From: a virus
DNA: 26,041 bases
IMG/VR virus record: IMGVR_UViG_3300025687_000280
Span: 1-26,041 of that record
Strand: one strand, 5' to 3'
Below, piece by piece: positions 1 to 26,041 of the stretch (within the stretch, counting starts at the first letter, position 1; the number at the start of each line of letters is the position of its first letter). The position numbers and the translations under genes were made by a program. Below the pieces are notes generated by a model. It was not told where the DNA came from. It did not search any database and was given only the letters and a program-made list of their open reading frames with translations.

Positions 1-144
1 CTGAATCGTGTTCCAAAAAATATCCCAGTCAGGCGAAATATTAACTTCGACATCAACGGTCGTAGCTCCGCCACCGCCGCCGACATAAACCGGAATGCTG
101 ATCGGTATTCGATAAGTAAAAGCTGAATCGGCCCAAGACGCCAT
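1..144 (-). CDS. Partial structural protein, candidate major tail protein, DUF2341-like N terminus
   Basis: Only the first 48 codons are present; the gene runs off the left edge. The ATG overlaps the stop of the tail terminator gene as TAATG, so translation is probably coupled. The N terminus reads MASWADSAFTYRIPISIPV, followed by a five-glycine stretch and then NISPDWDIFWNTIQ. The W...YR.PI.IPV opening and the later FW motif resemble the start of DUF2341-type beta-sandwich domains seen in phage and surface proteins. The position directly after the tail terminator is where siphophages usually encode the major tail (tube) protein, so that is the inferred role. The resemblance is a short-motif match, and the rest of the protein cannot be seen. 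It could instead be a minor tail or fibre protein. Confidence 0.5.
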   Translation of the reverse strand, partial: MASWADSAFTYRIPISIPVYVGGGGGATTVDVEVNISPDWDIFWNTIQ

Positions 145-605
145 TAATCACCTCGATCGGTTTGTCTGGTTACTAATAGCCGAATGTAAGCAATTCCAAC
201 ATTCGGAATGCCGTATTTATCACCGTCACGAGCAAGAAAGGAACAGCGAACATCGTCAACGATCCCATCAGTGAAGCCTAGAAGGCGGTTAGCGGTTATG
301 GCTTTGATTATGTCAGAAGCCAGATTGATCGCTTGCTGTCTCCGGCTATCCACATGAACACCAGAACCAGCGCAATAGCACACAATGTTAAATTCGGCAT
401 CGCCTTGATACCTTCCAAGAGCTTGACCATGTTCTTCGATGAAGTCAATAAACTGAATCGTGGCATAAGGCACGGTCGGCGGCTCTGTGACTTCACCGAT
501 AACGACTTTATTTGACAGATCCAATCCAGAATAGCCGCTTGAATAATCAGCGGCTATTGTCGTTTTGATGGCGTCTTCGATTCGAATGATTGGCGAGCTA
601 GGCAT
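144..605 (-). CDS. Tail terminator / tail completion protein
   Basis: This 153-residue protein lies between an HK97 gp10-like protein and the start of the probable major tail protein, which is the conserved place of the tail terminator that caps the tube and joins it to the head. Features fitting small terminator folds are an N-terminal helix (IIRIEDAIKTTIAADY), a central beta region with PYATIQFIDFIEEHGQALGR, a helix containing QQAINLASDIIKAI, and a C-terminal strand IAYIRLLVTRQ. The length is typical (130-200 residues). Its ATG overlaps the preceding gene's TAG by 8 bases, and its stop overlaps the next ATG, so it sits in a tightly coupled late operon. Assignment is by position and general pattern, not by a diagnostic motif. 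Confidence 0.6.
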   Translation of the reverse strand: MPSSPIIRIEDAIKTTIAADYSSGYSGLDLSNKVVIGEVTEPPTVPYATIQFIDFIEEHGQALGRYQGDAEFNIVCYCAGSGVHVDSRRQQAINLASDIIKAITANRLLGFTDGIVDDVRCSFLARDGDKYGIPNVGIAYIRLLVTRQTDRGD

Positions 606-5004: not shown

Positions 5005-8000
5005 TTAGTCGACAATCGGGATCATAGTGCACCGACAATTGATGTCTTCGCTAGCCTCACCGAATGAAGCTGGGCTTGGCGCTTCTGCTCCGCTTTCGCT
5101 GACGAAGTTTTCATTGACGCCGACAGTCTGACCATCTAAGCCGGCGTGACTGTCTCGAACCTTTGAATCACGCGCTGATAGCCATTGTTTCTGAAGCCGA
5201 ACCCCTTGTGCCGTTGCGTCAGTATAAGCTTGTTGTGTGCCGCTGTTAGCTGCTCTGGTGCTTTCGGTCTGTGCGATCATTAGAGACCGCGCAGCTCCGA
5301 AAGCTGTAGCTGCGTCAATGTTCCGACCGATCTGGGCAATCGGCAAACCTTCCATCAAGCCATCTTCGATTATTCTGGTGACGGCGTTCTCTTGCGTTCT
5401 GACAATCTGTCTTGACATTGTATTTATAAGCTCGTTCGCCAGTGTTTCGGATATGGTCACATCATCCACCGGCAAACCAGCGAGACGCATGATTTGTTTA
5501 AGCGTGTCGCCGCCGCTGAGGAAATACCACTTGCGCCACTTTGATCCGATTATTTGCGCAACCAGTTCTTCTTCTGCAGCTGTATCCATCAAGCTGGCAT
5601 AATCGATAATGCCTTTGGTCATGCTTGGCTTCACATATTCCAGCGTTCGGTCTTGGTATCGCTTAGCTGCGCCTTTGAGATAAGCATTTGCAGCTAGCCT
5701 CAAATCCTTCTCTGCTGGTTCGTGAAAGGTACGCAACCACATCTTCCACAGATCCGTTCTTGCTCGTTCTTTGGTTTGCTTGGCTTTGACTTCGTTGATA
5801 ATCTCTTTCATCCGACTTTCACCGAGCGCGCCGACAGTGAACCATTTTATCTGCGCAACGATTCCAGCAATCGAAGATATATTTGGCGCCGGCGGGTCAT
5901 CGCTATTGAATTGTGAACCATCTTTAAAATGACGCGCTGACCACGCCTCGCGCTTTCGGATTGCCATTTCTTCGGTCTCGGTTGTCGGCGCTTTACTGCG
6001 GCGTCGCACGATAGGCAAAAGCCGCCGATATTGATTGTTGCCTTCAATGTTTCCCCCAGCTCGCCATATTTCTGGCCAGTTCTCTTTCAGGTCTTCGGCA
6101 TATTCCCAATCGAAAACCTGATAACCGCTATTGCTAAGATTCACGTTTTCGTCATCGCCATCGGCCGGAAAATTGGTCGGATCAACATCGCCGACAGCGC
6201 GCATTTTTTCCAGCGCCGGAGCTTCTTCTCCGAACTCTAGATAAAGCTTTTCAATGACGCCATAAAGCCGATTGATGTCACGCTGTGAGATCCCGTCAAG
6301 GTTATAATAACCGGTTCCAAATTTGGCTTCTTTTCGAAGCGCTGAACCGGCGGCAATCACGCCACGAAAAACAATCTGCGCTCGGCCGTCAATCATCTTT
6401 GCAATCGGCAAACGATAACCGCGCGGGTCATCTTCTCGGCCACGATAGACGAACAAGAACGCATTCGAATAACGATCGAAATCATCTTCACCGAGCAGCT
6501 GGTCGGCTTCACGCTTTGTAAATCCCCAGTCGGTATCTTTTGGGGCTTTGTCTAGCCCTTCATAGCCGAATAGCAAATGCCGCTTTTCTTCGTCTTCGCC
6601 TCTTGTGCTTAAAGGGTGTTCTTCTGGCAATAAATCGGTGTCATAAGGCTGTCTTCGATATTTTAGATTCCGAAGCGCATAAAGCAAGCCATTTACGCGA
6701 CCCATAGCCCACTGTTCAGCGCTAGAGACAGTCGGTCGAACGCTTGAAGGGTTGCTTTCATAAGCTCCGATTCCACGAAGATATGAGACCGCCAGAATAT
6801 ATTCATCTGTTTGCTTGGCTGGATCATCGCCTACAGCTTCGAGATGTTCTTCAACCTTTTTTTTTAAAACTGTTTGTGTGTTTTCGTTTAAGCTGTTGAA
6901 CGCTTCACGGCGGTTCTCATAGGTGCTGAGATCCTGTCGGGTTTCGATGCTGTAAATCCGAGCTAGATAAGATCGTGCGTCTTCGGCTGTTTCGTCATTA
7001 TAATCTGCGATCGGTTCATCGATGTCTTCAGGGTATTCAAGACCTTCGTATTTGTAAGCTGCGCGCGGTGAAACGCCGTTTAAGATGTGCATTGACACGC
7101 GGTTAAGCTGCTCGGTGCGTGGCTCTTGAAGCGGTTCAACGGCTGAATAATCGTGTTCGAAGACAAGATCATCTTCCCATCTTTGCGCGATGGCACTGAA
7201 CAAGATCGATAGCCGCTTGCCGCGCTTGACTTGAACAGTCCAATAGTTTTTAGCTTGCTGTCGAGAGGTCGCATAATTGGCCGCCGGCAATCCTAGAACC
7301 GAAGGCGGAACACCAGTGACGGCTGAAATGCTTTCGCGCGCCATTCTCCGAGCTTCAACATATTCCATTTCACGAGGTGACAGCTGCAGCGGTTCAACTT
7401 CAGCCAAGCCAGACAGAACCATCGCACCACCGCCGGCGCTCAGCTTGCGGTATTCTTGCGCGATTTCTCGGCGTGTCTCTGGTCCCCAAATATCAGCGGG
7501 ATCTTTCGGCGAGATCAGCAAGTCCGGCCGAGCTTTCGCGCTTGATTCGCTGACTAGGTTCTGACTATTGATGTCGGCGGTTAGCTCTCTTGACAGCGGT
7601 TCGATCGCACCGGTTCCAAGAAGTTCTTCTGGGCCGCTTTTCCAGCTAGCAAGCCGACCATGAACGACGCGCTCCGGTGGATATGCGATCATCTGGCCAC
7701 CGCTGTTGTAAAGATAAGCTTGGATGCCAGTTTGATTCGTTGAGATCCGCACATTTTCGGGATGTAGTCGGACAATCGAAGTCGGCTTGTCGGTTTGACC
7801 AAGAAGAAGAATATAACAGTTCCCCGTCAAGATAAGATCGGTGCACAACTGCTCTCGAAACAGATAGCCGTCAACATTTGACGAGGGTTGATTCATTAAA
7901 TCGATGACTGGGTGATCTTCAACCAGAACGCGGTCTTTTCCTTTGAGCAATCGAAGCGGTAAAGCTGCGAGATCTTGCGAAGCGCGTGAAACAGCTGCAT

Positions 8001-8199
8001 AAGTGTAACCATGACCAGCATAAGCCGACATCGCTTCTTCTGGATTATAGGTCGGTCGCACGCCATACGGCTGGGCATAAGTCGCACCATGATCAAGCTC
8101 GCGCGGTTTGCTCTGCACATCGGCTAGCTGCTTTTGTTCTGGTGCTGAGAACCAATTAACGATTCTGAACCATAATCCGGTCTGTGTTGCTTCTGACAT
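5005..8199 (-). CDS. Portal protein fused to a MuF-type minor head protein
   Basis: This 1064-residue protein is far longer than a normal portal (400-550). Numbering is from an in-frame GTG two codons upstream. Residues 50-400 are an HK97-type portal: AAVSRASQDLAALPLRLLK, then DLILTGNCYILLL, then AVTGVPPSVLG and ANYATSRQQAKNYW. Residues about 485-800 are an extra region with motifs SAEQWAMGRVNGLLYALR, GYRLPIAKMIDG, VFRGVIAAGSALR, WRAGGNIEGN and KREAWSARHF. Residues about 860-1066 are a Mu gpF-like domain: SLMIAQTESTRAANSG, SARDSKVRDSHAGLDG and a terminal INCRCT. The portal forms the packaging vertex; MuF-like domains are head proteins that may be ejected. ATG 8199 is chosen over GTG 8205 because AAAGGGG lies 5 bases before it. 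The RusA stop lies just upstream. Confidence 0.9.
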   Translation of the reverse strand: MSEATQTGLWFRIVNWFSAPEQKQLADVQSKPRELDHGATYAQPYGVRPTYNPEEAMSAYAGHGYTYAAVSRASQDLAALPLRLLKGKDRVLVEDHPVIDLMNQPSSNVDGYLFREQLCTDLILTGNCYILLLGQTDKPTSIVRLHPENVRISTNQTGIQAYLYNSGGQMIAYPPERVVHGRLASWKSGPEELLGTGAIEPLSRELTADINSQNLVSESSAKARPDLLISPKDPADIWGPETRREIAQEYRKLSAGGGAMVLSGLAEVEPLQLSPREMEYVEARRMARESISAVTGVPPSVLGLPAANYATSRQQAKNYWTVQVKRGKRLSILFSAIAQRWEDDLVFEHDYSAVEPLQEPRTEQLNRVSMHILNGVSPRAAYKYEGLEYPEDIDEPIADYNDETAEDARSYLARIYSIETRQDLSTYENRREAFNSLNENTQTVLKKKVEEHLEAVGDDPAKQTDEYILAVSYLRGIGAYESNPSSVRPTVSSAEQWAMGRVNGLLYALRNLKYRRQPYDTDLLPEEHPLSTRGEDEEKRHLLFGYEGLDKAPKDTDWGFTKREADQLLGEDDFDRYSNAFLFVYRGREDDPRGYRLPIAKMIDGRAQIVFRGVIAAGSALRKEAKFGTGYYNLDGISQRDINRLYGVIEKLYLEFGEEAPALEKMRAVGDVDPTNFPADGDDENVNLSNSGYQVFDWEYAEDLKENWPEIWRAGGNIEGNNQYRRLLPIVRRRSKAPTTETEEMAIRKREAWSARHFKDGSQFNSDDPPAPNISSIAGIVAQIKWFTVGALGESRMKEIINEVKAKQTKERARTDLWKMWLRTFHEPAEKDLRLAANAYLKGAAKRYQDRTLEYVKPSMTKGIIDYASLMDTAAEEELVAQIIGSKWRKWYFLSGGDTLKQIMRLAGLPVDDVTISETLANELINTMSRQIVRTQENAVTRIIEDGLMEGLPIAQIGRNIDAATAFGAARSLMIAQTESTRAANSGTQQAYTDATAQGVRLQKQWLSARDSKVRDSHAGLDGQTVGVNENFVSESGAEAPSPASFGEASEDINCRCTMIPIVD

Positions 8200-8225
8200 A
8201 TTCACCCCTTTAAAGGGTATATATC
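8197..8225 (-). promoter_or_regulatory. Shared late leader in front of portal
   Basis: On the minus strand: an extended -10-like TGATATATA, then ACCCTTTAAAGGGG, then TGAATATG with the portal start. The central CCCTTTAAAGGG is a perfect 12-bp palindrome that contains the ribosome site. It matches the protease leader except for one inserted base and two substitutions. A promoter that starts transcription just before the portal gene, uncoupled from resolvase and methyltransferase, is a reasonable inference. Confidence 0.45.
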
Positions 8226-8642
8226 AATTTTAATGTAATTTCGTTCAGATTTTTTATTTTCGCGGATCTTGCCATACCATTTCGTTGCGATGAGACCGAC
8301 AACCTGAGCATCATCTTTTAAAACCTTCGCATCTTGCAAGGCATCGAGAACGGATTTCGTGATGTTATCCAGATCTGGCTTCGTGCCTTTAAAGATTCGA
8401 TCGGTCGGGTCTGATTTGCGCATCAAGCTTTGAGGTCGCTGATAAATAAAGGTGATGTCAACAAATACGACATCTTCAATGTTTAAAGCTGCGATTTGAT
8501 TTCGGATCTGGGTCACCGCTCCGCTTTTCCACTGAACATAATTCATCGGCATATAAGCTCGGCCGCCAGCAACGCGCGGTCGTGGGCATGACATCGGTTT
8601 TGTTTCAATATTAAGTGTTATCCGTTCGCCTGTTAAATTCAT
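8202..8642 (-). CDS. rusA: RusA-like Holliday junction resolvase
   Basis: This 146-residue endonuclease resolves four-way DNA junctions from replication and recombination before packaging. The diagnostic segment is KPDLDNITKSVLDALQ followed by LKDDAQV. D90, D92 and D111 reproduce the spacing of the three catalytic aspartates of E. coli RusA (70, 72, 91). A basic SCPRPRV stretch near residue 18 and a C-terminal KKSERNYIKIDI strand complete the fold. The length fits the family (about 120-150). The ATG overlaps the methyltransferase stop as ATGA, with AGGTGA upstream, so the two DNA-processing genes are translationally coupled. Confidence 0.9.
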   Translation of the reverse strand: MNLTGERITLNIETKPMSCPRPRVAGGRAYMPMNYVQWKSGAVTQIRNQIAALNIEDVVFVDITFIYQRPQSLMRKSDPTDRIFKGTKPDLDNITKSVLDALQDAKVLKDDAQVVGLIATKWYGKIRENKKSERNYIKIDIYPLKG

Positions 8643-9856
8643 GCTTCACCTAGCCAGTCAAAAAAAGATAATTGTGCGTTCTCTCGTTTATATTCTTCGA
8701 TGGCCCAAGAACAACGACCTTCGATAATTGGGATATAATCTTCGGTAAGCTCGCAGCCGATCGAATCAAATCCTTCGAGAACAGCTGCTGCTAATGTCGT
8801 TCCAGATCCGGCAAAGGGGTCGAGAACAGTTCCACCTTTCGGCGTGACAAGACGACATAACCATCTCATGAGTTTAAGCGGCTTGACAGTCGGATGAAAG
8901 TTTTTTACTTCTGGCGTTTTATTTCCATCCAAGCGTTCGCCAGTTCCATTGTGTGAATTCATGTTACTTCTCTTTATCTTGTCAGCTAGATGTTCAAGAC
9001 CGGCGTCACGCTCGGCTCGGCTTGGCTTGGCGCATTGATAGATATTTGCTGGCCATCTTCCAAGATGATGTGCAAAAGAATTACAATAGGTCATTTCAGG
9101 TAATTGAACACTAATCCCAGTACCTGTTGACAGAGAACCATCTTTTCTTCTTGGATCTCTGATTTTTTCATCAGGCCCTACCCAACATTCATCACCATAT
9201 CCAAATCGACACGCATCTATATTCAAACCGCCCGTTTTCGTCTTCAAAACCTGTCGGGCTATACTCGATTCGGCTAAAGGCTTTCGTGCTAAAATTGCGG
9301 GTTCTTGTGCTGGTTTTAAAGCGGTTCCCCAGCCCTCGAATTCTTTGGCTTCTTCAGTTTGTGTTTCAATCTCTTTGCGTTCATATTCAACGACATCGCC
9401 AAGAATTCCGTTATTTCTTCCCTTGTGCTGATAAGAATTTGTGCCATATTCAAGCTCGGTCTTTCGCAGCTTTGTGCTATGAGAACCACCGTTTAACAGT
9501 GTTGAATCGATGGCTTTAGCTATGTTTAAAGATTTTGGAAAGCCAGAGAAATAAAGCCAGCTGATCATGTCTCTAATTTCAAATCCGGCATCTTCAATTG
9601 CGCATGTCGTTCGGTGGATTGTTCTGGTCGCTCCGAATGCTATCAAGTGACCTCCAGCCTTTAAAACACGAAGACATTCAGCCCAAAGCTCTTGGTTATA
9701 AGCTGCGCCGGTATTATCCCAGCCCTTACCCATAAAAGCGATTTCATAAGGTGGATCTGTCACTATCGAATCAATAGATTCATCAGGAATCGATTTCAAT
9801 ATATCGAGATTATTTCCAAGATGAATTTGATAGCTCGGTATTCTTAATTCATGCAT
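8639..9856 (-). CDS. Beta-class DNA methyltransferase (N6-adenine or N4-cytosine)
   Basis: This 405-residue protein transfers a methyl group from S-adenosylmethionine to an amino group of DNA. The catalytic motif IV, SIVTDPPYEIAFMGKGWD, is at residues 30-47, and the SAM-binding motif I, VLDPFAGSGTT, is near the C terminus. This motif IV-then-I order defines the beta class. Between them, HPTVKPLKLMRWL matches motif X, and the middle (about 110-290) is the variable target-recognition region. Recognition sequence and target base cannot be read from the sequence. No restriction endonuclease is adjacent, so it is probably an orphan that protects phage DNA. The start is supported by AACAAGGAAAA. 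A strong terminator ends only about 15 bases before the ATG. Confidence 0.9.
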   Translation of the reverse strand: MHELRIPSYQIHLGNNLDILKSIPDESIDSIVTDPPYEIAFMGKGWDNTGAAYNQELWAECLRVLKAGGHLIAFGATRTIHRTTCAIEDAGFEIRDMISWLYFSGFPKSLNIAKAIDSTLLNGGSHSTKLRKTELEYGTNSYQHKGRNNGILGDVVEYERKEIETQTEEAKEFEGWGTALKPAQEPAILARKPLAESSIARQVLKTKTGGLNIDACRFGYGDECWVGPDEKIRDPRRKDGSLSTGTGISVQLPEMTYCNSFAHHLGRWPANIYQCAKPSRAERDAGLEHLADKIKRSNMNSHNGTGERLDGNKTPEVKNFHPTVKPLKLMRWLCRLVTPKGGTVLDPFAGSGTTLAAAVLEGFDSIGCELTEDYIPIIEGRCSWAIEEYKRENAQLSFFDWLGEA

Positions 9857-12537: not shown

Positions 12538-13758
12538 CTACCAAGGAATATCAGCGATTTCGTTGAACTTGATACCGTCTTCTTTGATGGCTTCTTTTCC
12601 GGTCAGCTGCTGCCAGCGCCTAATGATGACATCGCAATATTTCGGATCGAGTTCCATCATAAAGCATTTTCGGTTTGTCTGTTCGCAAGCTATGAGAGTA
12701 GATCCAGAGCCACCAAAGGAATCAAGAATATTCTGATCTTTTTTTGTGCTGTTCTGTATTTGATAAGAAATAAGCTGCACCGGCTTCATTGTCGGATGTT
12801 GTCCATTTCTATTTGGTTTATCATACTCTAATATTGTTGTTTGCTTTCGATCAGAGTTCCATAAATGAGCTGCTCCAGCTTTCCAGCCGTACAAACATGA
12901 TTCATGTTGCCAATGGTAATCTTGACGACCAATCACCATTGTTTGCTTTTTCCAGATTAAACACTGCTTTAAAAGCCAGCCAACATTTAAACAGCTTTGA
13001 CGAAAATGGATATTAGTATCCTCATGCCAAATATAAAAAACAGCGCCTTCTTTCATATTTTGATCAGCTTGCTCATAAGCAGAATCTAAAAATAAAGAAA
13101 ATTCTGTATCCGTTATTGAGTCATTTTTGATTTTTAATTTGTCTTTTGTTTTTCCTTCATAAGCTACATTATAAGGCGGATCAGTGATCCATAAATCTGC
13201 TTTTTCACCGGCCATCAGCCGCCCGATATCCTCTTCTTTCGTGCTGTCACCACATAGCAATCGATGATCACCAAGAATCCACAGATCGCCCGCTGAGGTA
13301 ATCGCTTGTTCTTCGACCTCTGGCACATCATCCGGATCGCCATTCAGTTCCACCGGATCGTCTTGGTCAATTAGCGCGTCAAGTTCTTCGTCAGACCAGC
13401 CAAGACCCGACAGATCTTGATCTTCAAGTGACGACAGAACCTCTTTCAGCTTGTCTTGATCCCAGTCAGCGATCTCGCCGATCTTGTTATCTGCGAGCGC
13501 AAGCAGCTGGGCGTCATTCAAATCGAGATCCATGAAGCGAACCGGAACAGATTTCAAGCCGATCTTCTTGGCAGCTTCGAATCGTGTATGACCGGCGATG
13601 ATCATATTATCAGCTGCTCTGGCGATGATTGGCGAGGCGAATCCGAAGCGCTTGATGGATTTCGCGACTTCATCGATCGCGCTCTTGTTCTGTCTGGGGT
13701 TATCTTTCCATGCGTTAAGGGTTGATATATCAACCCATTCGCCGATTGATTCTGTCAT
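12538..13758 (-). CDS. ParB-like domain fused to a beta-class DNA methyltransferase
   Basis: This 406-residue two-domain protein has a ParB/sulfiredoxin-like fold at residues 8-115, with NPRQN (20-24), the conserved IIAGHTRFEAAKKIG (53-67) and ALADNKIGE. An acidic linker (117-150) leads to the methyltransferase. This has motif IV LWITDPPYNVAYEG (189-202), motif X HPTMKPVQL (321-329) and motif I ILDSFGGSGST (344-354), in the beta-class order. The architecture is common in phages and prophages. The ParB-like part probably binds DNA or nucleotide and may guide methylation; target sequence and base are unknown. Its ATG follows the ribbon-helix-helix gene's stop, and TAGGAAAA serves as both stop and ribosome site. 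Confidence 0.9.
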   Translation of the reverse strand: MTESIGEWVDISTLNAWKDNPRQNKSAIDEVAKSIKRFGFASPIIARAADNMIIAGHTRFEAAKKIGLKSVPVRFMDLDLNDAQLLALADNKIGEIADWDQDKLKEVLSSLEDQDLSGLGWSDEELDALIDQDDPVELNGDPDDVPEVEEQAITSAGDLWILGDHRLLCGDSTKEEDIGRLMAGEKADLWITDPPYNVAYEGKTKDKLKIKNDSITDTEFSLFLDSAYEQADQNMKEGAVFYIWHEDTNIHFRQSCLNVGWLLKQCLIWKKQTMVIGRQDYHWQHESCLYGWKAGAAHLWNSDRKQTTILEYDKPNRNGQHPTMKPVQLISYQIQNSTKKDQNILDSFGGSGSTLIACEQTNRKCFMMELDPKYCDVIIRRWQQLTGKEAIKEDGIKFNEIADIPW

Positions 13759-23328: not shown

Positions 23329-25389
23329 TCACCGCCCAAATAAAGATGACTTGCCGACCCCGAATTGACCGAAGCGGGTTTCGAGCTTGCGCACTAGTTC
23401 ATCGATAGCTCTGTTTTCCACGACTGCGCTATTGATGACGATGTTGATTCCACCACCGCCGCCGGCTTGATTCATCATGCGCTGTTCAGCTTGACCCGCT
23501 CGCCCACTGGCGGGCAGAACTGTTTCACCCTCATGAAGCATAGCCAGACCGCGCTTTCCACGCGTGAAGCGTGCGCCGCTTTGCGCTGACATTATGCCGC
23601 CAGATAAATAAAACTGAGATGATTCACCCAGATTTTCAAAGAAGGTTCTTCTTCTTTCTCGTCTTTGCTGTCGTCGTTCTTGTCGGCCTTCGCGGGTGAA
23701 TATATCACGAAAGAATTCTTTGATGTTCTCCCAAAGTCTCTTGAAGGCCTCGCCGAAAGCGTCAGCGATTATAAAGGGCAATTTTAAAAGTGTTTCACCG
23801 ATTCCACGAATTAAAGCAACAACGAATCTAGGCAAGACCTGAATCAAAACACGAGGCAACATCTTCAGACCGTTTTCAAATGCTTTGACAAAGTTATTAA
23901 AATCTTGCTGTATTTCTTTAGGTGACTTTTCACCAAGTCTAGCAATGCCTGTTATCGCTCCGGTGATGACTTCAGATAATCCCATCGTAACACCAGACAA
24001 AGCCGATCCAAGCTCGTTTAAAAACCCCGCTGGGCCACTGACACCGGCCAAGATTGCATTCGTGATCGAACCGGCGACAGCGATCTTAAAAGTCTTTTCC
24101 ATCAAAGCGGGCAAATCTTTCAGGCTTGAATCGAGATCTTCGAGATCGATGCTGATTGAATCTAATTGATTGATAAGCTCGTCTATACCGTTAACGAAGT
24201 TTGTAAAATCCGGTGCAGCTGCTGAGACAGCACCACCGCCACCACCACCGCCGCCGCCGCCGGTTACTTGAAAAGGCGTGAAGCCACCACCGATCAAGCC
24301 TTGAAGCTGGTTCTCAAATTCTTTTGCGTCTTTCTGTGCCTTGTTTATTGCTCCTGAAACTGCATTGAAAAATCCGGCAAACTTCTTATCCATTCCGGTC
24401 AGATGTGCGATCGGCTTGGCTAGGTCAAACAAAGTCAAGCTAAGATTTCCGAAGATCGGAATCATGCCAATGAGAGCGCGGGCGACTTTCGGAAAGATCG
24501 ACAGCAAGCCTTCAAAGATCATTGACATCGTGTTCAAAGCGGCTGTGAATACTAGCGAAATCGTGTCAGACAGGCTGATAATGATACTTTGAATAAAGGC
24601 CAATTGAGCGCCGAACTTGATCAGCATTTGCGTGATCGCTGGGCCAAATGTTTCAATAAAGGTTGACTTCAGACCTTTGGCGACCGTATCCAAACCAGCC
24701 ATTACGACCTGAAAATCGGCCGCTGCGTCACTGGCTTTCGGGCCGGTTCGAACGCCGAACTTCTCTGTAAATGCGACAAATTGCGCTAGACCTTGAGATT
24801 GACCAAGCGCTTGAAGAAGCTGACTAGCTGAACGGCCAAAAACATCGAAGGCCATTTTAGCGCGCGTGGTCTGATCATCGATGGCTTGAAGCCTTGTCAA
24901 AGTCTCAAGAAATACATCATTCGCGGGTCGTAAAGATCCGTCAGCGTTCTTGATTTCAACGCCGAGCTTTTTAAAGGCTTGCGCTGTTCGGCTTGATTCT
25001 TCTTCAGCCATCGACAGAACCGCCGGAAATTTGCTTAGAATGCTCGTAGCTTGGCTTGCGTCTTGACCGCTGGCTTGAAGCGCAAATTGCAAGCCCTTGA
25101 TCGTATCAGCGGCGATCGCTGAACGGTTTGAAAGATCGTTTATATCGTTGATCAAATCAGCGCTTTCTTGCCCGAACTGAACCGCAGCTTTTGCGGCGTC
25201 AATCAAAGCACCAGCGACGGCGATCATTCCAGTCGCCAGAACGCCGGCGGCGGTGACCACAGAAGCCATCGAACCGGCGGCGGCCAATAGACTTTTCTGC
25301 GCACCGGCGGCGGCTTTCGCTGTATCGCCAAGCCCTTTTTGAGCTTTTCCGGTTTGGACTTTTAAAATATAATCAACAGTCGTCGCCAT
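23329..25389 (-). CDS. Tape measure protein
   Basis: This 686-residue protein sets tail length and is later ejected. The N terminus is long, helical and Ala-rich (KAQKGLGDTAKAAAGAQKSL, then hydrophobic segments 40-70). The motif LSNRSAIAADTIKGLQFALQ and LTRLQAIDDQTTRAKMAFDV with FGRSA are typical of tape measure proteins. Hydrophobic stretches recur at 250-330 and 435-490. A 10-glycine run (about 377-386) separates two halves. The C terminus is basic (REGRQERRQQRRERRR) and ends in FGVGKSSLFGR. At about 1.5 Angstrom per residue it predicts a tail near 100 nm. It follows the tail chaperone extension directly (TGATATG). Confidence 0.93.
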   Translation of the reverse strand: MATTVDYILKVQTGKAQKGLGDTAKAAAGAQKSLLAAAGSMASVVTAAGVLATGMIAVAGALIDAAKAAVQFGQESADLINDINDLSNRSAIAADTIKGLQFALQASGQDASQATSILSKFPAVLSMAEEESSRTAQAFKKLGVEIKNADGSLRPANDVFLETLTRLQAIDDQTTRAKMAFDVFGRSASQLLQALGQSQGLAQFVAFTEKFGVRTGPKASDAAADFQVVMAGLDTVAKGLKSTFIETFGPAITQMLIKFGAQLAFIQSIIISLSDTISLVFTAALNTMSMIFEGLLSIFPKVARALIGMIPIFGNLSLTLFDLAKPIAHLTGMDKKFAGFFNAVSGAINKAQKDAKEFENQLQGLIGGGFTPFQVTGGGGGGGGGGAVSAAAPDFTNFVNGIDELINQLDSISIDLEDLDSSLKDLPALMEKTFKIAVAGSITNAILAGVSGPAGFLNELGSALSGVTMGLSEVITGAITGIARLGEKSPKEIQQDFNNFVKAFENGLKMLPRVLIQVLPRFVVALIRGIGETLLKLPFIIADAFGEAFKRLWENIKEFFRDIFTREGRQERRQQRRERRRTFFENLGESSQFYLSGGIMSAQSGARFTRGKRGLAMLHEGETVLPASGRAGQAEQRMMNQAGGGGGINIVINSAVVENRAIDELVRKLETRFGQFGVGKSSLFGR

Positions 25390-25390
25390 A

Positions 25391-25609
25391 TCACACCATG
25401 TCGATCATTTCCATCACAGAAATAACCGGAAAAATCATATCATCTTTTTTTCGTTTATTCATTGCTTCTTGCGCTCGCTCCGAGCGGGCGATGATGCAAC
25501 GAACACACATGAAAAGCTCTTGCCACGAAAGAGCAAGAACTTCGCTGGGCAGCTTGCCATAGCTGCGCGCGATGATGTCGACGATGTTGATAAATTCTTT
25601 GTCACCCTC
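25391..25609 (-). CDS. Tail assembly chaperone frameshift extension (GT-type)
   Basis: This open frame of 72 codons directly before the tape measure gene has no usable start. It reads EGDKEFINIVDIIARSYGKL, then PSEVLALSWQELFMCVRCII, and ends in PVISVMEMIDMV. It joins the preceding chaperone frame by +1 at TTT CGA (25613-25608), giving ...AENF-EGDKEF.... The first ATG in this frame is at 25510, deep in the segment and without a ribosome site. In many siphophages a chaperone and its longer frameshift product sit exactly here and assemble the tape measure protein. The composition (helical, LSW.E motif) fits such a C-terminal domain. Confidence 0.7.
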   Translation of the reverse strand, partial: EGDKEFINIVDIIARSYGKLPSEVLALSWQELFMCVRCIIARSERAQEAMNKRKKDDMIFPVISVMEMIDMV

Positions 25610-26041
25610 GAAAGTTTTCCGCCGAATCGGCGGCCTCCTTTACTGAGATCATCGCCTTTTCAAAGATGGCGTTCTTGTCTTCTTGCGAAATCATGCCGAC
25701 CCAGAGAACATTCTTTGCGGGATTTTGCTGTGCCTCGTGATGAACCAGCGTCAACTTCTCCCAGCTTGCGCCATCGTCTTGACTGGCTTTGTCAACCACT
25801 TGACACAAGACGCGGTCTTGCATTGCTCCGAAAGTCAAGATGTCTTCAGGCGTGATCTTCTCCAGCTTTTCTTCGAAGCTGATCTGCTCCGATTCTTCTG
25901 TCGACATCGTCGCTGCCATTCGGCTGATCAGCGTCTTCGAAGCTATACCGGCCGCTTGTGCCTCGATCGGTGAAAGCACGCGGCCGGATAAATGTAATTT
26001 GCCGTTGAAAGCGGTCAGATTCCATCGCGCTTTCTCGGCTA
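25602..26041 (-). CDS. Tail assembly chaperone (G-type), N-terminally truncated by the window
   Basis: The frame is open to the right edge, so the N terminus lies outside; an internal GTG at 25979 is not the start. Visible residues begin ...EKARWNLTAFNGKLHLSGRV, then LSPIEAQAAGIASKTLISRM, then an acidic part (STEESEQISFEEKLEKITPE) and helices to ...AADSAENFRG. A small acidic protein directly upstream of a tape measure gene is the usual tail assembly chaperone, which keeps the tape measure soluble while the tail tube forms. It probably gives two products, one ending at 25602 and one continuing by +1 frameshifting to 25391. Confidence 0.7.
   Translation of the reverse strand, partial: AEKARWNLTAFNGKLHLSGRVLSPIEAQAAGIASKTLISRMAATMSTEESEQISFEEKLEKITPEDILTFGAMQDRVLCQVVDKASQDDGASWEKLTLVHHEAQQNPAKNVLWVGMISQEDKNAIFEKAMISVKEAADSAENFRG
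25608..25613 (-). promoter_or_regulatory. Candidate +1 programmed frameshift site
   Basis: On the minus strand the zero frame reads AAC TTT CGA GGG TGA. Phe-tRNA on TTT can re-pair one base downstream on TTC, and CGA is a slowly read codon in many bacteria. The next codon is then GAG, opening the 72-codon extension. The stop is only one codon beyond CGA. Confidence 0.55.

Follow-up and report, generated by a model that had tools for sequence, protein, structure and literature searches.

A conserved UUU_C site and candidate +1 frameshifting in a tail assembly chaperone gene pair with an upstream Shine-Dalgarno-like element and hairpin

Described frameshifting systems closest to the locus

The tail assembly chaperones of tailed phages are known to use -1, -2 or +1 shifts in different phages (PMC5009743), and the remark of the initial annotation that +1 is rarer than -1 in these genes was in line with that account. 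The lambda G/GT pair (PMC5009743) was found to share with the present locus the site before the tape measure gene, the short chaperone with its fusion, and the start-less second part, whereas the lambda shift is -1 at a heptamer and the relation here is +1 at UUU_C. A lambda-type X_XXY_YYZ heptamer with a -1 relation was not found at the junction, and the relation was +1 in all close relatives. Unlike lambda, the locus was found to contain its Shine-Dalgarno (SD)-like element and hairpin upstream, and no 3′ structure was found by simple folds without pseudoknots of the 64 nt downstream (mean z +0.19 over 57 junctions).

The slip motif and direction were identical to those of influenza PA-X and the plant amalgaviruses, in which UUU_CGN is the +1 motif (PMC5052127). 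These are, however, eukaryotic RNA viruses with 80S ribosomes, and PA-X is without an evident stimulator (PMC5009743); the likeness is presumably one of convergence and not of descent. The prfB (RF2) gene (PMC12421855) shares the upstream SD-like element and the slippage of a P-site tRNA on a pyrimidine run, whereas it has a stop codon in the A site and an SD only 3 nt from the slip site, and the present locus contains a sense codon, a spacing of 20-25 nt and no implied autoregulation. In vitro, with 70S ribosomes and a stalled A site, an upstream hairpin with a 12-bp stem is reported to boost +1 shifting, its effect being ~60% of that given by an internal SD (PMC6321510). These engineered hairpins, like that of the locus, lie directly upstream of a +1 site, but they are synthetic, 12 bp long and dependent on absent RF2 or a hungry codon, whereas the present hairpin is natural, 6 bp long and placed beside an SD.

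According to the authors of PRFect (PMC10885494), a general +1 motif has yet to be identified. Bacterial +1 frameshift signals are poorly known, and a conserved UUU_C motif (mostly UUU_CGN) was found here in the chaperones of very different phages. A published description of UUU_CGN as a +1 motif in phages was not found in the literature consulted, of which the coverage is incomplete; the +1 joins deposited for some cultured phages show that annotators had already met the motif. The +1 shift of a tail chaperone is of a kind already known, and the upstream layout of SD and hairpin is the new part.

The gene pair and its slip site

The window, which is the whole stretch of DNA analysed (an IMG/VR virus record of 26,041 bases), was found to contain terminase, portal-MuF, protease, capsid and head-tail genes, all on the minus strand. 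Its right end cuts into the chaperone gene, followed on the minus strand by the tape measure gene (23329..25389; PHROG tape measure matches and PF10145). A PF18906 tail tube protein was found directly upstream of the chaperone in two relatives, L005 and L009 (E 2e-20 and 4e-30); this neighbour was read in those relatives only, the window ending before any tail tube gene. With the tail tube gene on one side and the tape measure gene on the other, the gene pair therefore occupies the place of the lambda G/GT pair.

The first frame, ORF1 (25602..26039, minus strand), encodes a putative short, gpG-like tail assembly chaperone, of which about 8 N-terminal residues (by comparison with L036) are cut off by the window end, and terminates at TGA 25604-25602. 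The second frame, ORF2 (25391..25609, minus strand), encodes a putative T-like C-terminal domain in the +1 frame, overlaps the end of ORF1 and contains 72 codons (25609-25394) and a stop (25393-25391), followed after a single base by the tape measure ATG at 25389, directly downstream. It begins with EGDKEF and reads (F)EGDKEFINIVDIIARSYGKLPSEVL...MIDMV. The ORF2 frame was found to be free of ATG, GTG and TTG from the stop that precedes it up to the conserved RSYG core (read in L036, which has an identical junction), and internal ATGs do occur further into the frame, past the core. The initial annotation had reported a 72-codon start-less frame between the chaperone stop at 25602 and the tape measure gene; its coordinates were right, and no standard start precedes the core.

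The junction contained the letters GAA AAC TTT CGA GGG TGA, with the slip site TTT_C at 25610..25613 (minus strand; TTTC at 25613-25610) and the zero-frame A-site codon CGA at 25610-25608, so that the frames join at UUU_CGA (25613-25608). Programmed +1 frameshifting at UUU_C is, on the sequence evidence, very probable. Shifting is inferred to occur with an efficiency that would leave the majority of ribosomes to stop at UGA 25604-25602, giving the short ORF1 form. In a minority, the peptidyl-tRNA-Phe on UUU (25613-25611) would slip one base forward to UUC, bypass CGA and UGA and read GAG GGU GAC and onward through ORF2, giving a fusion of the form ...SAENF-EGDKEF.... Through its C-terminal helical domain, the fusion probably ties tape measure protein that is coated with chaperone to the tail tube. 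Of this proposed mechanism, the part with the best support is the slippage of the P-site tRNA-Phe from UUU onto UUC.

Relatives were collected by scans of viral contigs, which gave 34 and then 70 loci; L105, L164, L173 and L175 were found to be spurious matches, and the true homologues of the second scan numbered 69. With the later L171, L172 and L174 the total was 72 loci in 11 protein clusters at 60% identity. All 69 true homologues (57 distinct junctions) contained TTT_Y at the same alignment position together with the +1 relation, the distinct junctions being TTTC in 55 cases and TTTT in 2, and TTT_Y and a +1 second ORF were found in every one of the 72 loci and 11 clusters, with TTT_C as the form everywhere except in two. 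A slip site with +1 re-pairing was thus found to be conserved across divergent sequences. The initial annotation had placed a +1 step at TTT CGA with an AENF-EGDK junction and had suggested comparison with related phages; the direction and the junction were right, and the site, the frame relation and the slip codon were kept in the relatives.

Synonymous constraint was scored from pairs within six clades, in which alignment columns with equal amino acids were examined for codon differences. The slip codon was found to contain no synonymous difference in any of the six clades, whereas the expectation summed over the clades was about 89 pairwise differences (the pairs are not independent), and the synonymous ratio was around 1 upstream of the region of SD, hairpin and slip site.

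The zero-frame A-site codon was CGA or CGC in most clusters and CAA throughout a freshwater clade of 24 loci, with TCA, CCA, CTC and TGA as rare forms. A rare A-site codon as the driver was rejected: CGA is no rare codon in the genes of the window (74 of 5349 codons), and this frequency together with the CAA clade means that a 'hungry codon' is no general explanation. The TGA form was found in L044 (1997-2002), where the site reads TTT_TGA and the ORF1 stop is itself the A-site codon, as in prfB. The ORF1 stop directly abuts the slip site in L044, follows it by a few codons in most loci and by over 20 codons in the L097/L100 group, and the stop codon therefore lies outside any fixed signal.

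Upstream elements and alternative readings of the junction

In the 5′ to 3′ direction of the mRNA, the layout was found to be AAAGGAGG CCGCCG ATT CGGCGG AAAAC TTT CGA GGG TGA. The AGGAGG upstream of the slip site, the hairpin and an ATT that follows the SD by 6 nt in the ORF2 frame had been missed in the initial annotation. The SD-like AGGAGG (25634..25639, minus strand) lies within ORF1 and is separated by 20 nt from the slip codon downstream, a spacing kept exactly throughout the window and freshwater clades. An SD-like element was present in 11 of 11 clusters at 20-25 nt upstream of the slip codon; in every cluster the match to the anti-SD was -8.6 kcal/mol or lower, started 26-30 nt upstream of TTT and was the best or among the best of the C-terminal part of ORF1. 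Codons -9 and -8, which contain the SD, were without synonymous change in four clades, and the element was kept despite an amino acid change in L043 (K-E-A to K-G-A, with AGGGGG). For the window and freshwater clades, randomisation of codons with the amino acids preserved gave an SD-like word at a frequency of mostly ~5-20%, against its presence in all of the actual sequences. The A-rich lead of the SD in the window can pair with the slip site (AAAG...CUUU; 25610-25641, minus strand), outside the hairpin, and the freshwater relatives (SD lead ACAGGAGG) appear to be without this pairing.

The SD is followed by a 5′ hairpin, CCGCCG-ATT-CGGCGG (25619..25633, minus strand), in which 25633-25628 pair with 25624-25619 and the 3′ end lies 5 nt before TTT; it folds at -10.7 kcal/mol in a local window. 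Among nine relatives of the window clade, compensatory changes were found in four of the six stem pairs, with a covariation score of 0.57 that was reached by 0 of 500 shuffles (mean 0.22), and registers slid along the alignment scored 0.02-0.13. The hairpin of L036 was more stable than amino-acid-preserving randomisations (p=0.01). The stems of the window clade include CCACCG-AAT-CGGTGG (L040), CGAGTG-AAC-CACTCG (L043) and CCAGC-N5-GCTGG (L042 and L045). Unrelated-looking stems were found at a similar distance in L052, the marine clade L082-L096, L097/L098, L100/L102/L174 and L171, and a comparable stem 6 nt from TTT in Microbacterium phages, so that the 3′ ends lie ~4-6 nt before TTT even in otherwise unrelated stems. 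Codons -3 and -2 of the 3′ arm contained no synonymous change in the two other hairpin clades. The marine stem was 100% paired but its changes were one-sided and its covariation was matched by shuffles; the support from covariation therefore comes only from the window clade. The hairpin was present in about half of the clusters and was rejected as a universal element, being absent in the 24-locus freshwater clade and in others that keep the site and the SD.

That the SD and the hairpin raise the shift is favoured, with some reserve, by the comparative analysis. The hairpin would re-form behind the ribosome and end ~5 nt short of the slip codon, and the folded hairpin would take 15 nt out of the spacer, leaving the SD ~5 nt from UUU, a distance like that of prfB. 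The SD may be brought near UUU by such folding; this cannot be the only way, because hairpin-less clades exist. A natural hairpin-assisted +1 shift, in which the stem re-forms as a duplex that pushes the ribosome or folds out the spacer for a distant SD, is proposed tentatively, at a probability somewhat short of even. If true, it would be the counterpart in bacterial viruses of a design found described only for engineered reporters, and it would sit in a tail-chaperone lineage that switched between -1 (GGGAAA) and +1 (UUU_CGN).

The leading alternative accepts the +1 shift and takes the SD and hairpin to be non-stimulatory, serving for example to slow ribosomes for cotranslational folding of the chaperone or to protect the mRNA; it is less probable than a stimulatory role, while still holding about a third of the weight. 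It agrees with the distance of the SD from the slip site, since SD stimulation of -1 shifting is described at 8-11 nt (PMC6321510) and that of prfB at 3 nt, and a spacing of 20 nt falls outside the tested ranges (PMC12421855, PMC6321510). The hairpin is moreover not universal, and mycobacteriophages keep TTT_CGN mostly without either element. Against this reading, unrelated hairpins hold their 3′ end at ~4-6 nt before TTT, and the suppression of synonymous change is local to the SD, the hairpin arms and the slip codon. The stimulatory role of the two elements is directly testable by the natural variation in SD position and hairpin across the relatives.

It is very unlikely that ORF2 is translated as a gene of its own from AUU (25627-25625), which lies in the ORF2 frame 6 nt after AGGAGG, even though AUU is the known start codon of infC, the SD and spacing in the window are ideal, and the same place is occupied by ATC in L037 and L044 and by ATA in L038. 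The codon was missing in L039, L040, L042, L043 and L045, and most of the 24-locus freshwater clade contained a TAG in the ORF2 frame between the SD and the slip site, with an open frame there that begins only 2-5 codons before TTT and has no start codon; such a start would also leave the absence of synonymous change at TTT unexplained.

The +1 frame relation of ORF2 is the same as that of -2, and Mu uses -2 (PMC5009743), so that a -2 shift adding one extra residue would reach the same frame. This reading was found to be extremely improbable: the bases before TTT vary freely (AAC, AAA, ACC, CGA, CGG, ACG, ATG and others), pairing after a step back by two bases is not conserved, and the step from UUU to UUC keeps full pairing instead. 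Single-base frame changes are a frequent sequencing artefact, but a sequencing or assembly indel in a single gene (as the initial annotation had allowed for) or a pseudogene is refuted to a negligible residue, since 72 loci and 16 cultured phages share the arrangement.

Chaperone relatives and genome setting

The structures of ORF1 and ORF2 were modelled separately (AF2). The ORF1 model (pLDDT 77) was found to match, among the predicted structures of BFVD, two annotated tail assembly chaperones of Mycobacterium phages, that of Hawkeye at E 1.9e-4 and that of Madruga at E 7.6e-4, and the HK97 chaperone 2ob9 was a non-significant match in PDB (E 2.4). Neither Pfam nor PHROGs gave a significant match for ORF1, ORF2 or the fusion, in searches of low power for families that diverge fast, and the ORF1 and ORF2 sequences searched directly against annotated phages gave only non-significant matches; the link to the actinobacteriophages is accordingly owed to the fold search and not to direct sequence search. 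The locus thus combines a chaperone fold with, by sequence, a short product and a fusion to a start-less second ORF, and it has no significant match among curated families of chaperone sequences; such a match would be supporting and is not strictly defining. The gene pair is best explained as encoding a short and a long tail assembly chaperone that share one start, like lambda G and GT.

A search from Hawkeye gave 143 phage records, of which 16 were inspected (Mycobacterium, Gordonia and Microbacterium phages). The junction was found to contain TTT_CGN in all 16 chaperones, with a fusion that begins F-A or F-V. Six of them (Zenon, Cuke, Fowlmouth, OverHedge, Aesir and TinyMiny) were deposited as two-piece joins spanning 3n+1 bases, which corresponds to +1. 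In Hawkeye (L266, KJ194582, 15385-16255), TTT_CGC was the sole zero-frame TTTY in the overlap and was correctly placed (15943), and genes 27 and 28 were deposited unjoined, gene 28 from a TTG, so that the fusion was missed; Predator, Gumball, Patience, Madi, Suzy, Oaker, DrLupo, Lambo and Apeppi were also deposited unjoined. The motif allows annotators to join pairs that now stand in the databases as separate genes or that lack the join. The actinobacteriophage pairs annotated as +1 contained the same TTT_CGN site at the same place as the window, whereas their proteins have far diverged from those of the window, and most of the mycobacteriophage relatives among the 16 contained no clear SD at a comparable distance and no stable hairpin. 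When the ORF2 profiles of the window family and the actinobacteriophages were compared, the alignment started at the residue immediately following the slip (70%, E 3.9e-5).

When fused or separated frames were sought, no close relative was found to have the two frames fused; the more distant homologues were joined by a -1 shift at GGGAAA. In these other viral contigs (L027-L035 and L176-L265), homologous ORF2 domains with an RYGKLPSEV core were joined by the -1 shift, GGGAAA being present at 89 of the 95 loci classed as -1 and AAAAAAG in L184 and L185. ORF2 and the second domains reached by -1 matched in profile-profile comparison (97.8%, E 1e-12). To judge from these sequences, the direction of the shift has switched within the chaperone family. 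Homologous domains are reached by -1 and by +1, and selection therefore appears to keep the fusion product and not the direction.

The left end of the window (1-605) was found to contain a gene similar to the L005 gene lying two places ahead of the tail tube gene, and the right end (25602-26041) begins inside the chaperone; the record therefore looks like a circularly permuted genome without the tail tube segment. A scan of genomes for prophage candidates gave a single match, a helicase, which was rejected as spurious. The portal gene (5005-8205, minus strand) encodes a 1066-aa fusion of a PF04860 portal (residues 69-326) and a Mu F-like PF04233 domain (942-1062), separated by ~600 unmatched residues. 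Two PF01555 DNA methylases were found on either side of the terminase region (12538-13758 and 8639-9856, minus strand), one of which contained an N-terminal ParB-like domain.
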